Shown one piece after another: positions 29,633-36,370 of a DNA stretch of 64,000 nt. Origin of the DNA: Clostridia bacterium. Its GTDB lineage: Bacteria; Bacillota; Clostridia; TANB77; CAG-508. Under the pieces are notes generated by a model. The model was not told the DNA's origin and did not search any database. It saw only the letters and a list, made by a program, of their open reading frames with translations. How positions within the stretch are numbered: position 1 is the stretch's first letter; the number at the start of each line of letters is the position of its first letter. The stretch lies in contig JAFWMA010000016.1 in NCBI GenBank assembly GCA_017510825.1, forward strand, positions 1-64,000. Direction: 5' to 3'. Made by a program: the position numbers and the translations under genes.

Positions 29633-29661
29633 TTGATAAATAATTTGTTTTGTATTATAAT
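29633..29661 (+). promoter_or_regulatory. Promoter of the dlt-like operon
   Basis: TTGATA (29633-29638), 17 bases and TATAAT (29656-29661). The transcript would begin near 29668 and carry a leader of more than 200 bases before the ligase gene. Confidence 0.65.
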
Positions 29662-29708
29662 ACTCTCTAGCACTAAGAAAAAGTTTATTTAAAAGAGAGT
29701 TTTATGGA

Positions 29709-29876
29709 ATAAAAATTAAAAACATTAAAGATTATATTAAAGAACAAAACCAAGAGTATTATTTAACATCTCATGTTGATAAATTTTTAAATCACGAATG
29801 AAAAATTCCTGTTTTAAGACATGTACTTGTCAGAGTTAGAGAAAAAACACATGATGGAAATGATTTAGATAGATAA
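29709..29876 (+). pseudogene. Degenerate reading frame in the leader of the dlt-like operon
   Basis: One frame reads as protein-like sequence: IKNIKDYIKEQNQEYY, then LTSHVDKFLNHE, a TGA stop (29799-29801), then KIPVLRHVLVRVREKTHDG and TAA (29874-29876). No start codon or ribosome site fits the 5' end. TGA is a true stop elsewhere in this window, so this is best read as the remnant of a small gene. The family is not recognised. Confidence 0.4.
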
Positions 29877-29885
29877 TTAGAATGG

Positions 29886-31385
29886 ATGGATGTAATAATG
29901 AAAAACATACTTGAATTTCTAGAAAAATGTAATAATAAAAATAATATTGCTATAATAGAAGAAGAAAAAAAATGTACTTATGGTGAATTAATAGAAAAAA
30001 GTATGCGTGTTGGAACAAGTTTAATAAAATATAACAATATAAATACTCCTATACCTATTTTTATGGAAAAAAGTATAAATACTTTATGCACTTTTTTTGG
30101 AGTTGTGTATGCAGGTTGCTGTTATTCATTAATAAACCCTGAATTACCTAAAGATAGGTTAAAAGCAATTATTCAAGTATTAGAAAGCAAATATATAATA
30201 ACAGATGAAGAGCACTATGAAACTGCTAAAAAATATTTTGATAATGTACAAATATTGTTAATTGAAAATTTGCTGAAAGAACAAATAAATAGTGAAGAAT
30301 TAATTAAAGTTAGGGAGAAAATGATAGATACAGATCCTTTATATATTAACTTTACTTCAGGTTCTACAGGAATTCCTAAGGGAGTTGTAATTAATCATCA
30401 AACTACAATAAATTTTATAAGTGAATTTACAAAAAAATTTGAAATTAATAGTAAAGACATTATAGGAAATCAAGCTCCTTGGGATTTTGATGTATCTGTT
30501 AAAGATATATATTCATCAATTTCAACTGGAGCTACAATGGTGATAATACCTAAAAGATTATTTTCAAGACCAGCTGAGTTGTTAGACTACCTATGTAATA
30601 ATAAGATAACAACACTAATTTGGGCAGTATCTGCTCTATGTTTGATTACAACATTTCATGGATTAGATTATAAAATTCCAAAGGATATTAATAAAATAAT
30701 GTTTAGTGGTGAAGTTATGCCTATCAAACATGTTAGTCAGTGGATTGAAAAATTACCAGATGCAAAATATGTAAATCTATACGGTCCTACTGAAATAACA
30801 TGCAATTGTACATATCATATAGTTAACAAGAAGAAGGTATACGAAAAATCAATACCAATTGGAAAATCTTTTAATAATGAAAGTGTTTTCTTATTGGATG
30901 ACTCTAATAAAGAAATAAAAAATTGTAATGAAACAGGAGAAATATGTGTAAGAGGAAGTACTCTTGCATTAGGATATTATAATAACTTGGAACAAACAAA
31001 TAAAAGTTTCATTCAAAATCCACTAAATAATAAATATAATGAAATTATTTATAAAACTGGAGACTTAGGGTATTATGATGAAAATAAAGATTTGAACTTT
31101 GCAGGGAGAAAAGATTTTCAAATAAAACATTTAGGTCATAGAGTTGAGCTTGAAGAAATTGAAAGAGCAATGGAAACTTTAAAAAATGTAGAGAGAGCAT
31201 GCTGTACTTATAATCAAGATAAAGGTAAGATAATAGGATTTTATGTTGGAAGTATAGATTCTAGGGATTTAAAGTTGAATCTAAAAAACAAACTACCAAC
31301 ATATATGATTCCTAATGTTTTGAAACAAATTGATAAATTTCCATTAAATAAAAATGGTAAAATTAATAGAAAAAAGCTTTGTTAG
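29886..31385 (+). CDS. DltA-like amino acid:carrier protein ligase (AMP-forming)
   Basis: The 499-residue ANL-superfamily adenylating enzyme has NFTSGSTGIPKG (A3), NLYGPTE (A5), YKTGDLG (A7), GRKDFQIKHLGHRVELEEIE (A8) and the final catalytic Lys motif NKNGKINRK (A10). The context GNQAPWDFDVSVKDIY is closest to DltA, which loads D-alanine onto the Dlt carrier protein. However, the FCGE motif of DltA reads FSGE here (S274), and that Cys is tied to D-Ala selection in known DltA, so the amino acid may differ. The carrier protein is encoded at 32660. The start could also be the ATG at 29898; neither has a strong ribosome site. Confidence 0.85.
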   Translation: MDVIMKNILEFLEKCNNKNNIAIIEEEKKCTYGELIEKSMRVGTSLIKYNNINTPIPIFMEKSINTLCTFFGVVYAGCCYSLINPELPKDRLKAIIQVLESKYIITDEEHYETAKKYFDNVQILLIENLLKEQINSEELIKVREKMIDTDPLYINFTSGSTGIPKGVVINHQTTINFISEFTKKFEINSKDIIGNQAPWDFDVSVKDIYSSISTGATMVIIPKRLFSRPAELLDYLCNNKITTLIWAVSALCLITTFHGLDYKIPKDINKIMFSGEVMPIKHVSQWIEKLPDAKYVNLYGPTEITCNCTYHIVNKKKVYEKSIPIGKSFNNESVFLLDDSNKEIKNCNETGEICVRGSTLALGYYNNLEQTNKSFIQNPLNNKYNEIIYKTGDLGYYDENKDLNFAGRKDFQIKHLGHRVELEEIERAMETLKNVERACCTYNQDKGKIIGFYVGSIDSRDLKLNLKNKLPTYMIPNVLKQIDKFPLNKNGKINRKKLC

Positions 31386-31465
31386 ATAAAAAAATATATA
31401 ATACTTCGCAATTTTTTAAACTATATATTATCTTACAATATTTATAATTTAAAAGGAGATTTTTA

Positions 31466-32617
31466 ATGAATGAACCTATATTAAAGCAAATTATTGATAA
31501 GTATGATACACCTTCTTATGTTTATGATATTGAAATTCTAAAAAATCGCATTAGTTATATTAGGAAACATCTACCTAGTCGAGCTAAAATATGTTACGCA
31601 ATTAAGGCAAATACTTTTATTATAAAAGATATAGAGCGTGAAGTTGATAGATTTGAAGTATGCTCTCCAGGTGAATATGAAATTTGCAAAAAACAAAATG
31701 TTGATGAAAGTAAAATACTGATATCTGGAATTAATAAAAGCAAAGAAGAAATTGATCATGTTATTGAAACAAGTAATGTTCGATTTTTTTCAATTGAATC
31801 AATGAGTCAATTTGAGATTTTTAAGAATTCAAGTAAAAAAGTTGAATTGCTGCTAAGACTAACGAGTGGAAATCAATTTGGAATAAACAAAGAAGAGATA
31901 GAAGAAATTATTACAAATAGAGACAATTATTCTAACATTAAGTTAAAAGGAATTCAATATTTTTCGGGTACTCAAAAAACATCTATAAAAGTATTAAGAA
32001 AAGAATTAGAAAAGCTGGATAGTTTTTTTAAAGAGTTAAAGCAAAAATATAATTATGAGGCAGAAGAATTCGAATTTGGAACGGGATTTCCAATAAATTA
32101 TTTTCAAGGTAGAGATTTTGATGAGAATGAGTTTTTTAAAGAATTTTCTGAAATAGTTGATAATCTTGAATATGGGGGAAATATTATATTCGAAATTGGA
32201 AGAAGCATTGTAGCTAGTTGTGGAACGTATATTACAAAAGTAATAGATATAAAAACAAACAAAAATCAAAAATATGCAATAGTTGACGGAGGTATCAATC
32301 ATTTGGTATACTATGGTCAGTCAATGGCAATGAAAGTGCCATATTTAGAAATACATCCAAGTAGAGAAAATAAAGAAGATGAAAGATGGAATATTTGTGG
32401 TTCATTATGTACAATAAATGATATACTAGTAAAACAGTTACCTGAAAAAATAGAATTGAATGATATTATTGTTTTCAAAAATACTGGTGCATATTGTTCT
32501 ACTGAAGGCATTTCACTATTTTTAAGTAGGGATTTACCAAATGTTATTAAAATAGATGAGGATAAATCTATTAAACTAATAAGAGAAAAGAATAGTACTT
32601 TTCAATTTAATGGATAG
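31466..32617 (+). CDS. Fold-type III PLP-dependent decarboxylase (LysA/BtrK-like)
   Basis: The 383-residue protein is of the alanine racemase-like barrel group that includes diaminopimelate, ornithine and carrier-bound glutamate (BtrK) decarboxylases. The PLP lysine is K47 in CYAIKAN. The C-terminal domain carries CGSLC (C311, C315), IELNDIIVFKNTGAYC and a domain-closing FLSRDLPNV, the usual order in these decarboxylases. It is not a normal LysA: it is shorter and sits between a DltA-like ligase and a carrier protein. BtrK acts on an amino acid held on a carrier protein; the same is suggested here by gene order only. The RBS AAAGGAG is strong. Confidence 0.85.
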   Translation: MNEPILKQIIDKYDTPSYVYDIEILKNRISYIRKHLPSRAKICYAIKANTFIIKDIEREVDRFEVCSPGEYEICKKQNVDESKILISGINKSKEEIDHVIETSNVRFFSIESMSQFEIFKNSSKKVELLLRLTSGNQFGINKEEIEEIITNRDNYSNIKLKGIQYFSGTQKTSIKVLRKELEKLDSFFKELKQKYNYEAEEFEFGTGFPINYFQGRDFDENEFFKEFSEIVDNLEYGGNIIFEIGRSIVASCGTYITKVIDIKTNKNQKYAIVDGGINHLVYYGQSMAMKVPYLEIHPSRENKEDERWNICGSLCTINDILVKQLPEKIELNDIIVFKNTGAYCSTEGISLFLSRDLPNVIKIDEDKSIKLIREKNSTFQFNG

Positions 32618-32659
32618 AAAGTAAGTAAAATATAAATATATAAATTAAAGGAGATTATT

Positions 32660-32890
32660 ATGGACAAGTTAATTGAAATATTGGAAGATATTGAATCAGG
32701 ACTAGATTATGAAAATTGTGAGAGTTTGGTTGATGATAATTATTTAGATTCTTTAGATATAATATCACTTGTTGCAGCAATTGAAGATGCATTTAATGTT
32801 CAAATACCAGCTGTTGACGTAATTCCAGAGAATTTTAATTCTGTAGAGTCAATTTGGAAACTTATTAATAGATTGGAAGAAGAAGGATAA
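32660..32890 (+). CDS. Acyl/aminoacyl carrier protein (DltC-like)
   Basis: The 76-residue acidic four-helix protein has the phosphopantetheine site DSL with S31 in NYLDSLDIISLV. The size and charge match DltC and other stand-alone carrier proteins. It would carry the amino acid activated by the 29886 ligase, possibly present it to the decarboxylase, and hand it to the MBOAT protein encoded next. RBS AAAGGAG. Confidence 0.9.
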   Translation: MDKLIEILEDIESGLDYENCESLVDDNYLDSLDIISLVAAIEDAFNVQIPAVDVIPENFNSVESIWKLINRLEEEG

Positions 32891-32945
32891 TATATTTTTG
32901 AGTTTGCTTATGTTGAAGATGAATATAATTAGGAGATAGATTATA

Positions 32946-34535
32946 ATGACTTACTGTGATTTGATATTTTTGGGGATTTTTTTACCTGTTACAATATTAT
33001 TATATAATGTAATACCTCAAAAACATAGAGCAAAGGTGTTATTAATTGCAAGTTATGTTTTCTTTTGGTCAATAAGTGGGAAGCTAATAGTATTTTTATT
33101 AGCAACAACAGTATTAATGTATATTTTTGGTATATGTAATAAAAAGTTGATTGATAAAAGAAAAAATGAATTGAAGAATGTTGAGAAAAATAATAAGAAA
33201 ATAATAAAAGAAAGATACTTAAGAAAAACTAGATTAATTCTAGTTTTTAATGTTGTTATACTATTAGGAATGATTGTTGTATTAAAGTATTCAACTTTTA
33301 TCGGTAATAATATTAATTATTTATTTAATGTTATTGGTTATCCTGTTAATATAGGTATTGCTCACTTTGCTGTACCAATTGGCATATCATTTTATACATT
33401 ACAAGCAATTTCATATATGATGGATGTATATAAAGAAAAAATAGAACCAGATAAAAATATTGGGAGATTGGCACTATTTATTAGCTTTTTTCCTCAGATT
33501 ATGGAGGGACCAATTTGTAGGTATAATGATACTGCTATTCAGTTGTGGAAAGGTGATAAAACTTCATATAAAAGCCTAACATTTGGAATGCAACGAATTG
33601 GATTTGGCTTGATGAAAAAAATGATAATAGCTGATAGACTTGATATTTTAGTTTCAGGTATATTTAGTAATTATAATGATTATAATGGTGGAATTATTGC
33701 TATAGGTATGATTTTATATACACTACAGCTTTACATGGATTTTTCTGGAGTAATGGATATTGTTATTGGAATTGCGGAAATATTTAATGTAAAAATGCCA
33801 GAAAACTTTAAACAACCATTTTTCTCTAAATCTATTTCAGAATTCTGGACAAGGTGGCATATTACATTAGGAACATGGTTTAGAGATTACATATATTATC
33901 CTGTTTGTATGTCTAAAAAAAGTAAAAAGATGACAACCAATCTTAGAAAAAAGTTTGGAAAATATTATGGACCATTAATAGTTAGTTCTGTAGCATTGTT
34001 TTGCGTCTGGATATGCAATGGAATTTGGCATGGTTCAGCATGGAATTATATTTTCTTTGGAATGTACCATTTTACACTTATTTTGATGGGAAGATTTGTT
34101 GAACCGATTTCTAAAAAATTCTACAAAAAGATAAAGATTAGAGAAGAAAGTGTTGGATTACTATTGTTTAGAATAGTAAGAACTACAATATTAGTATTTT
34201 TTGGTGAATTGTTTTTTAGAGCTGAGGGATTATTAGCTGGATTTAAAATGTTTGCTAAGATTTTTTCAAATTTTACTTTAGATTCATTATTTAATGGTGA
34301 GATACTTAAGATTGGTTTGAATTGGCAGGACTTTGTGATAGTAGCAATATTTACAGTTATATTCTTAGTTATTAGTATTAGAAAAGAACAAGGCAATAAA
34401 GTGAGAGAAAAGATAGCTGAAAGAAATATTGTTTTTAGATGGACATGCTATTTTGCAATTATTTTTGCAGTAATTGTTTTCGGCGCATATGGAGAAGGCT
34501 ATGTGCCAGTTGATCCAATGTATGCTCAATTTTAA
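32946..34535 (+). CDS. MBOAT-family membrane acyltransferase (DltB/AlgI-like)
   Basis: The 529-residue, about eleven-helix protein has the MBOAT core: SKSISEFWTRWHITLGTWFRDYIYYP and the catalytic histidine H362 in NGIWHGSAWNY. In the Dlt system DltB moves the carrier-bound D-alanine to the outside of the membrane. It is longer than DltB (about 400), with a charged insert at 65-100 and a C-terminal extension. Neighbours on both sides (carrier protein and SGNH protein) fit the role. AGGAG lies upstream of the start. Confidence 0.9.
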   Translation: MTYCDLIFLGIFLPVTILLYNVIPQKHRAKVLLIASYVFFWSISGKLIVFLLATTVLMYIFGICNKKLIDKRKNELKNVEKNNKKIIKERYLRKTRLILVFNVVILLGMIVVLKYSTFIGNNINYLFNVIGYPVNIGIAHFAVPIGISFYTLQAISYMMDVYKEKIEPDKNIGRLALFISFFPQIMEGPICRYNDTAIQLWKGDKTSYKSLTFGMQRIGFGLMKKMIIADRLDILVSGIFSNYNDYNGGIIAIGMILYTLQLYMDFSGVMDIVIGIAEIFNVKMPENFKQPFFSKSISEFWTRWHITLGTWFRDYIYYPVCMSKKSKKMTTNLRKKFGKYYGPLIVSSVALFCVWICNGIWHGSAWNYIFFGMYHFTLILMGRFVEPISKKFYKKIKIREESVGLLLFRIVRTTILVFFGELFFRAEGLLAGFKMFAKIFSNFTLDSLFNGEILKIGLNWQDFVIVAIFTVIFLVISIRKEQGNKVREKIAERNIVFRWTCYFAIIFAVIVFGAYGEGYVPVDPMYAQF

Positions 34536-34682
34536 TTTGGTTTAATTTTGCACACAATAGTATAATTGTATATAACACTTGTTCTTGCTGGTTGCGGGCA
34601 CAAATGCAATTTGCCTAAATTGTGATCAGAAAGTAATTGCTACAAACTGAAACAAAATTACAAATAGAAAGGATTTATATAA

Positions 34683-35624
34683 TTGAAAACTAAAATAATT
34701 AAAGTAATCGGTTTTGTAATAGTATTAATAATATTACTTCTAATTACATCACATATATTTGTGCCTAAAAGCAATACTGAGGAAGCCGGAATGCATGATT
34801 ATGAAGCAAATGGAATTTTAGCAGAAAAAGAAAGAACAATAGATTTGTTGATATTAGGAGATAGTGAAGCTTTTACTTCAATCATTCCTATGCAATTGTG
34901 GAATGATTATGGCTTTACAAGTTATGTGTGCTGTTCAACTGCTCAGACTATTCCTGAATCAATGATCTTTTTAATAAAAGCACTACAAAAGCAACAACCT
35001 AAAATGATTATTTTAGAAGCAAGTAATATTTATACAGCTTCTGAAAGGGATGAACATATTGTTCAAGTCTTAAATTATATGTTTCCAGTTGTAGAATATC
35101 ATGATAGATGGAAATATTTAAAAAGTAATGATTGGTTTGGAGAAATTAATTATGATGTAGTTAATGATTTAAAAGGATATCATTTTACAAAAGATGTGAA
35201 GGAAGCTCTTCCTAATAATAAAATGGCTCCTACAGAAGAAACTCAACCAATTCCAATTGCAAATAAAATATATATAAAACTTTTAAAAAAGTATTGTGAG
35301 ATGAATGATATTAAATTTTCAATAATTAGAACACCCACAACTTTTAGCTGGGATTATAAAAGTTATAATGGAGTGAAACAATTTGCAGATGCCGAGAAAA
35401 TTGAATATTTGGATTTAAACTTAATGAATGATCAACTTAAAATTGATTGGAAACAAGATTCAAAAGACGGAGGAGATCATTTAAATCACTATGGCGCAGT
35501 AAAGAATACAAAATTTATTGGAGAATTTGTTAAAAATAAAAACCTATTAACAGATCACAGAAAAGAGGAAAAATATTCAGGCTGGAATAAGTCGTATGAA
35601 GAATATAAAAGATTAGTTAAATAG
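34683..35624 (+). CDS. DltD-like SGNH-fold membrane-anchored protein
   Basis: A TTG start is used, with GAAAGGA eleven bases upstream. The 313-residue protein has one N-terminal membrane helix (about 7-24) and an SGNH/GDSL domain outside: ILGDSEAF with S61 and, near the end, GGDHLNHYGA with D265-H266. DltD has the same plan and acts in the last transfer of D-alanine to teichoic acid. Here it may be the final transferase to the surface polymer. A 147-base gap with no coding sign separates it from the MBOAT gene. Confidence 0.83.
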   Translation: MKTKIIKVIGFVIVLIILLLITSHIFVPKSNTEEAGMHDYEANGILAEKERTIDLLILGDSEAFTSIIPMQLWNDYGFTSYVCCSTAQTIPESMIFLIKALQKQQPKMIILEASNIYTASERDEHIVQVLNYMFPVVEYHDRWKYLKSNDWFGEINYDVVNDLKGYHFTKDVKEALPNNKMAPTEETQPIPIANKIYIKLLKKYCEMNDIKFSIIRTPTTFSWDYKSYNGVKQFADAEKIEYLDLNLMNDQLKIDWKQDSKDGGDHLNHYGAVKNTKFIGEFVKNKNLLTDHRKEEKYSGWNKSYEEYKRLVK

Positions 35625-35698
35625 ACAATATAAGATATATTCTAATTAAACATAATAGAGCTTAATTGCTTAATATATTAAAGAAAAGGAAAAACAAA

Positions 35699-36370
35699 AT
35701 GAATTTCATGGATATATGGATTGGAAAAACAGAAGAAGATATTTTAAATGAGCTATCAGACAATATATATTTAATGTCAGAGCAGTTCTCAATTTGCGAT
35801 TTTTTTGACAAAAATTATCAACATAAAGATAGTTTTTTAGCAAGTATCATTATAACACCAATGCAGGTTATTACATCATATGCACCAGAGATTGAAAATA
35901 GAAGAATACAGCATCAAGATTTGGTAAATACAATATTAAAAGAATCCGGAACAGAAGATATATTTCCAAGAATTAGAATAGATTGTAATTCTTCTGACGA
36001 AATAATGTTTTGTTTATGCAAAGTTGAGACAGAAAAAGACACTGGAATTTCAAAGGAAATGTATATAGCATTTCAGGAATTAAAATATATAATTGAAACT
36101 ATTGCAGGAGATGAATTAGTTTTAGATCATAATTTTGATGACCTAAATATACAAGATTGTATGACAAATCAAGAGATTCCAATAAATTATAAAGAAAGAC
36201 TTGTTGGAATTCCTATTAATGATTATATGAAGACATTAGAAAAAGAGAAGCAAAAAAGTTTAAATGTATCAATAGTGAAAAGCACACTAGACTCAAGTGA
36301 ACATAACAGGAAAGAAAACAATAAAGAAAAAACAAAGTTAGAAATGAGATGCTCTGAATTAGAAAGATAA
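35699..36370 (+). CDS. Hypothetical protein downstream of the dlt-like operon
   Basis: The ATG at 35699 follows AAAGGAAAA; an upstream TTG at 35666 has no ribosome site. The 223-residue product has no signal peptide or membrane helix and ends in a highly charged, Lys/Glu-rich tail (about 180-223). The core (FDKNYQHKDSFLASIIITPMQVITSYAPE) is not a family I recognise. It is 74 bases after the DltD-like gene in the same direction, so it may belong to that transcript. Confidence 0.65.
   Translation: MNFMDIWIGKTEEDILNELSDNIYLMSEQFSICDFFDKNYQHKDSFLASIIITPMQVITSYAPEIENRRIQHQDLVNTILKESGTEDIFPRIRIDCNSSDEIMFCLCKVETEKDTGISKEMYIAFQELKYIIETIAGDELVLDHNFDDLNIQDCMTNQEIPINYKERLVGIPINDYMKTLEKEKQKSLNVSIVKSTLDSSEHNRKENNKEKTKLEMRCSELER

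Follow-up and report, generated by a model that had tools for sequence, protein, structure and literature searches.

The charge of the bacterial surface, its protection from cationic peptides and its recognition by the immune system are set by the aminoacylation of envelope polymers. To our knowledge, the only carrier-protein route to this modification in Gram-positive walls uses D-alanine. In that route, the Dlt system (DltA, DltC, DltB, DltX, DltD), an adenylating ligase, a stand-alone carrier, an MBOAT acyltransferase and an SGNH protein are encoded in one operon, with residues for an acyl-Tyr/acyl-Ser relay. Here we describe an operon of a Clostridia bacterium (assembly GCA_017510825.1) that shares these elements, but differs from Dlt in a changed ligase pocket and an ever-present pyridoxal phosphate (PLP)-dependent decarboxylase. 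It lies in the first 64,000 nucleotides of contig JAFWMA010000016.1 (the window; positions are numbered from its first letter). We put the probability at about 0.6 that it encodes a transmembrane acylation system of the Dlt type in which the acyl group receives its final form while on the carrier.

Parts of this arrangement are known from other systems. The butirosin proteins BtrI, BtrJ and BtrK share with the operon a fold-type III PLP enzyme. BtrJ, the model for loading in a preliminary description of the locus, is an ATP-grasp ligase, whereas the operon ligase is an adenylation enzyme; the operon product, moreover, would go to an envelope acyltransferase and not to an antibiotic. Loading by an adenylation enzyme is found in the biosynthesis of vicenistatin (VinN/VinL/VinO) and fluvirucin (FlvN), where that enzyme picks an Asp-type residue for a stand-alone carrier and a PLP enzyme decarboxylates it only after loading (PMC11284099), though the downstream partner there is a polyketide synthase. 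BtrK decarboxylates a carrier-bound residue, and the substrates of BtrK, SbnH, FigC and MccE are all amino acids in conjugated form (PMC7857480). Both enzyme families also occur in the exosortase-A-associated pair TIGR03098/TIGR03099, whose models match the operon proteins far below their cut-offs (198.5 versus 592 and 172 versus 478) and whose gene context differs. MBOAT-SGNH O-acyltransferases of the PatAB type share the C-terminal Tyr hexapeptide on the MBOAT protein and the separate SGNH protein, but are thought to use acyl-CoA where the operon would use a carrier protein as donor (PMC12148441). Our literature searches found no description of the operon, a weak negative given their open-access scope; it is apparently undescribed in the open literature, and joins two known kinds of system rather than forming a new one.

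Conservation of a five-gene unit

The five genes lie on the forward strand in the order ligase, decarboxylase, carrier, MBOAT, SGNH (Table 1). The coordinates, order and families given in the preliminary description are borne out, the families by Pfam matches and, for the SGNH protein, by position and conserved blocks. Conserved adjacency of the five families, chosen beforehand as a check on the proposal, was found as well. We analyzed the best 80 named loci from a scan of named species genomes, retrieved via the PLP enzyme. The ligase gene is followed by the PLP gene in all 80, usually with an overlap of 4 bp (median gap −4 bp); carrier, MBOAT and SGNH genes come next in nearly all loci uncut by a contig end. 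The exact order is kept in 65 loci, and the other 15 display only contig-end cuts, inserted or duplicated genes, and split or duplicate open reading frame (ORF) hits. Because the loci were retrieved via the PLP enzyme, they show that this enzyme is always accompanied by the other genes; the converse follows from the ligase tree, where all PLP-linked ligases, reordered loci included, form one clade (99/98), and the next 18 Clostridia ligases, without a PLP gene, form a separate clade. The arrangement is far beyond chance, and the five genes are one conserved unit. Some of the 80 loci have a second MBOAT/SGNH pair; in four operons (L110, L152, L158 and L167 in our numbering) the extra pair separates the PLP gene from the carrier gene, and may serve a second acceptor.

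The assembly that contains the window is 1.43 Mb long and 84% complete, and only one type III decarboxylase was found in it. Among 391 genomes of the class scanned for the PLP enzyme, 14 (this one included) carry the subfamily, all at scores of at least 253 bits, and no hit falls between that score and 136 bits; it was not found in the congeneric genomes sampled. The hosts span Clostridia, Erysipelotrichia and Coriobacteriia, and include Ruminococcus bromii, Agathobaculum, Pseudoflavonifractor, Catenibacillus, Acetobacterium, Traorella and, from another phylum, Enorma. The sole recurrent neighbour is a two-component system (an OmpR-type regulator with a VanS/WalK-like kinase). Of the 56 loci that extend far enough upstream, approximately 30 have it there, and 3 of 49 have it downstream; its presence hints that the operon is controlled by envelope stress.

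Table 1. Features of the operon, in window positions
Feature	Positions	Strand	Basis
Candidate promoter TTGATA-17-TATAAT	29633..29661	+	Upstream of operon; 11/12 match, top score in region
Adenylate-forming amino acid:carrier-protein ligase, DltA-like	29886..31385	+	AMP-binding 1.2e-58; TIGR01733 just above cut-off; pocket kept in 74 homologues
Fold-type III (alanine-racemase fold) PLP decarboxylase, BtrK/SbnH/LysA clade	31466..32617	+	Pfam Orn_Arg_deC_N and Orn_DAP_Arg_deC; PDB profile search; model; K47 (Schiff-base Lys), C315 (catalytic Cys)
Stand-alone carrier protein	32660..32890	+	PP-binding; phosphopantetheine Ser31 in LDSL, 79/79 sequences
MBOAT acyltransferase	32946..34535	+	MBOAT family; H305/H362; C-terminal acyl-shuttle motif MYAQF (Tyr526)
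SGNH-type, DltD-like membrane-anchored transferase, TTG start	34683..35624	+	Position; GDS and D-H-x-N blocks; Ser61, His266

The ligase pocket and the catalytic residues

The ligase just exceeds the general amino-acid adenylation model, but falls far below the cut-offs of the DltA models (TIGR01734, 275.4 versus 559.85; PRK04813, 302 versus 476). Lys at position 239 of the adenylation pocket also occurs in a classical Glu code, which we treat as a lead only. In DltA, the residues that read the methyl group of D-alanine are Leu, Met and Cys (PMC11253843). An alignment to Bacillus DltA shows that they have become Val, Lys and Ser in the operon ligase, with Lys in place of the methyl-reading Met. 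Transferring GrsA numbering, anchored on the same alignment, gives the ten-residue code D-V-K-I-L-S-L-C-N-K, of which D, V, K, S, C, N and the final K are invariant in all 74 sequences. We rejected two further arguments: Val236 and Ser301 as marks of beta-amino acids are, judged from other codes, non-diagnostic, and a structural match to an engineered beta-amino-acid TycA (Z 50.1) is no proof beside the 49 obtained for other A domains.

Related operons offer a guide to the meaning of the pocket Lys. A sister clade contains 15 ligases with Lys or Arg at the same position, and 10 of these directly adjoin an Asp/Glu-family racemase (TIGR00035, 196 bits against a cut-off of 93), in the order racemase, ligase, carrier, MBOAT, SGNH. 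The sister racemase also scores just above the cut-off of the cysteate racemase model, and some members of the Asp/Glu family use other amino acids. Since Lys-bearing ligases are paired with enzymes for acidic residues, the pocket sequence supports an acidic substrate for the operon ligase: Asp or Glu, or another diacid.

The PLP enzyme was compared with solved structures through a profile built from 14 members. BtrK ranks first (7.9e-56, 192.6 bits), followed by SbnH (177.5 bits) and the best LysA (167.4 bits), in agreement with the BtrK analogy drawn in the preliminary description. All 81 sequences keep the Schiff-base Lys47, Arg246 and Cys315. The catalytic block reads GSLC[T/S]xND in the operon enzymes, GPLCTPED in BtrK and GQLCTPKD in SbnH, the last two sharing CTP.D, whereas LysA proteins read CE(S/T/N).D, including most LysA copies of operon-bearing genomes; the LysA-type Glu after Cys is Thr or Ser in all 81 operon enzymes. 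LysA is still the nearest curated model, below its cut-off (TIGR01048, 186.7 versus 297.9). In the tree, where we ignored one row (L182) in the wrong reading frame, the operon enzymes form a clade of their own (91/89) outside the BtrK and LysA clades. In structural comparison, the fold predicted for the operon enzyme scores Z 33.8 against BtrK over 372 residues and Z 33.0 against LysA, a tie that we do not accept as proof of BtrK over LysA. A separate LysA is present in 11 of the 13 other sampled genomes that carry the operon PLP gene, which is therefore not their lysine enzyme; together with the loss of the Cys-Glu motif, these copies led us to reject a LysA function as the main role. Relatives that act on conjugated amino acids make a carrier-bound substrate the natural guess for the operon enzyme.

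The remaining three proteins retain the residues expected of an export relay, and in this the proposal that a DltB/DltD export half is joined to the decarboxylase holds. The carrier, with its phosphopantetheine Ser invariant (Table 1), scores 24 against a cut-off of 68 on the DltC model PRK05087, and the MBOAT protein 150.3 against 375 on the DltB model TIGR04091. H305, H362 (in Trp-His362-Gly) and Y526 of the MBOAT protein are kept in 75 of 75 sequences, and almost every locus encodes P-[I/M]-Y-A-x-F at the C-terminus of this protein, a sequence close to the acyl-shuttle motif FxYxxF. The latter motif is found on DltX in the Dlt system and is fused to the MBOAT protein in PatA-type systems, which have no carrier protein (PMC12148441); the operon combines the fused motif with a carrier, and no DltX is seen. 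The SGNH protein has no Pfam or NCBIfam match, even at E 10. We label it DltD-like from its position and its GDS and D-H-x-N blocks, whose Ser61 and His266 are kept in 77 of 77 sequences.

Proposed decarboxylation on the carrier and competing explanations

From the gene set, its conservation, the catalytic residues and the altered ligase pocket, all read from sequence, we infer the substrate, the on-carrier step, the acceptor and an ester product. The ligase would adenylate a dicarboxylic amino acid at its distal carboxyl (Asp or Glu; less likely diaminopimelate via one end) and load it onto the phosphopantetheine of the carrier. The BtrK-like enzyme would then remove the free alpha-carboxyl of the bound residue as CO2, leaving a beta-alanyl-, gamma-aminobutyryl (GABA)- or lysyl-S-carrier. 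The MBOAT protein would carry the aminoacyl group across the membrane by taking it onto the Tyr at its C-terminus; from there the SGNH protein would hand it on, via Ser, to a hydroxyl group on an envelope polymer. The product would be an amine-bearing ester, functionally similar to D-alanyl esters.

If decarboxylation does occur on the carrier, a beta-alanyl group is our tentative first choice, GABA is somewhat doubtful, and lysyl from diaminopimelate and any other product are each unlikely, to about the same degree. GABA is marked down because its thioesters tend to cyclise and the butirosin route employs a protecting step, and diaminopimelate because lysine could be loaded directly.

Several observations weigh against carrier-bound decarboxylation. 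The operon, unlike the butirosin genes with their gamma-glutamyl step, encodes no protecting ligase. The equivalent of Asp235 is kept in the ligase pocket, and the loop region is ungapped relative to DltA in the aligned part; VinN, compared by description only, has its Lys/Arg in a loop, following YGPTE, that is shortened by one residue, whereas the operon Lys appears at the pocket base with no such deletion seen. The kept Asp235 and the ungapped loop speak most strongly against activation of a beta- or gamma-carboxyl, as activation of the alpha-carboxyl would also fit and would bar alpha-decarboxylation of Asp or Glu. The five genes are reordered in three genomes (PLP-carrier-ligase-MBOAT-SGNH in G397 and G432, MBOAT-SGNH-ligase-PLP-carrier in G403), and in G189 ligase, PLP gene and carrier occur with no MBOAT gene found within the 17 kb read.

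The retained alpha-amino-acid geometry would be explained if meso-diaminopimelate were loaded via one alpha-carboxyl and decarboxylated at its other end on the carrier, giving lysyl esters on the surface. The pocket Lys would then serve the distal carboxylate, and the closeness of the PLP enzyme to LysA agrees; yet lysine could be loaded directly, the Glu of the LysA motif is lost, and dapA was not found in the incomplete assembly, so we hold this version to be quite unlikely. Without any carrier-bound chemistry, the PLP enzyme might supply the ligase with a free amino acid to load (beta-alanine, GABA, or lysine made from diaminopimelate). LysA as nearest curated model, the lack of another type III decarboxylase in this genome and the presence of dapB speak for such a route. 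We nevertheless consider it unlikely, and the lysine version proposed in the preliminary description has lost ground: the motif change in all 81 enzymes, the separate LysA copies and the failure to find dapA in this assembly apply here too, lysine should be repelled by the pocket Lys while GABA and beta-alanine offer it no partner, and the best profile match in the PDB is a carrier-bound decarboxylase.

The alanine-racemase fold and the racemases beside sister ligases raise the option that the PLP enzyme acts on the acidic residue bound to the carrier as an epimerase and not as a decarboxylase, in the place of the separate racemase of the sister operons. The invariant decarboxylase Cys, the decarboxylase C-terminal domain and a weak score on the alanine racemase model (29.1 versus 168 bits) render this improbable. 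That the locus is an ordinary D-alanylation operon with an unrelated decarboxylase inserted we regard as very improbable, in spite of the dlt-like gene set and a pocket region nearest to DltA: the decarboxylase is tightly coupled to the ligase in every locus of a set retrieved through it, the ligase clade also tracks the decarboxylase, the D-alanine-reading residues are replaced in all, and the DltA, DltB and DltC models all score below cut-off.

Teichoic acid, the acceptor suggested in the preliminary description, is unsupported for this host, as neither an LtaS-type sulfatase (PF00884) nor a TagF-type polymerase (Glyphos_transf, PF04464) was found in its 84%-complete genome. Of the 13 other operon genomes, 7 have a PF04464 match and 12 a PF00884 match, several of them not LtaS-like in length, and in one (G280) neither match was found. 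The acceptor may be lipoteichoic or wall teichoic acid in some hosts and another wall polysaccharide or peptidoglycan in others.

Should finishing on the carrier be correct, the operon would provide a new surface ester in common gut bacteria such as R. bromii, might be a bacterial source of GABA or beta-alanine in bound form, and could be studied with five purified proteins. Annotation pipelines probably record its copies as dlt or lysA. We give even odds to the broader view of a widespread gut-bacterial pathway that makes beta-alanyl or GABA (or lysyl) groups through carrier-bound decarboxylation and exports them to an envelope polymer, as one branch of Dlt-like operons that pair acidic-residue ligases with different tailoring enzymes (decarboxylase, Asp/Glu-family racemase, N-acetyltransferase).

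Sister operons and flanking sequence

To judge from the sister operons, the acyl group may be an exchangeable module of Dlt-type systems. The commoner type in Clostridia (L208-L217, L221-L223 and L228; for example L221:3439-9854) has the ligase code DAKCAGLGMK and encodes, in order, a secreted protein with Ig/transglutaminase domains, the Asp/Glu-family racemase, ligase, carrier, MBOAT, SGNH and a small lipoprotein-like protein; its composition points to an acidic amino acid, D or L, as the residue loaded. A third type (L220:5694-10903 and L083:5475-11372) consists of ligase, GNAT acetyltransferase, carrier, MBOAT and SGNH-like genes, with the ligase codes DSKDMCIVDK and, read by hand, DLKILGLVDK. 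Further Dlt-like sets (L082:4592-9307, L200 and L226:3062-7556) have a ligase whose code starts with SM and thus lacks the Asp for the amino group, so that these sets may transfer an acyl group that is not aminoacyl. At L085:2372-8259, an MBOAT/SGNH pair is found beside what appears by eye to be an FkbH-type-like protein and a carrier, perhaps a glyceryl donor.

Around the operon itself, the claim of one good promoter stands only in part. The site at 29633 is the best in the region and its only 11/12 match, but promoter-like sites there number 63, against 63.6 in shuffled sequence; because this does not exceed the shuffles, the promoter counts for little as evidence. The interval 29690-29885 holds a decayed frame with two in-frame stops (KIKNIKDYIKEQNQEYYLTSHVDKFLNHE, stop, KIPVLRHVLVRVREKTHDGNDLDR, stop, LEW) that reads into the ligase start; the ligase itself probably begins at 29898, the second Met, from which its homologues align. 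The spacing between the MBOAT and SGNH genes (34536-34682) is 147 bp instead of the usual 12 bp, with no conserved content recognised. A 234-aa ORF 3′ of the operon (35666-36370) gave no family match even at E 10, and an Rfam scan of the region yielded no credible RNA. This ORF and the TetR and YhgE-like genes were dropped as members of the unit, since none recurs beside the operon in the 80 loci. Elsewhere in the same genome (L186, C15:59000-66500) and in a related one (L187), a single-module peptide synthetase of 1438-1449 aa is encoded, arranged by eye as condensation, adenylation, carrier and reductase domains.

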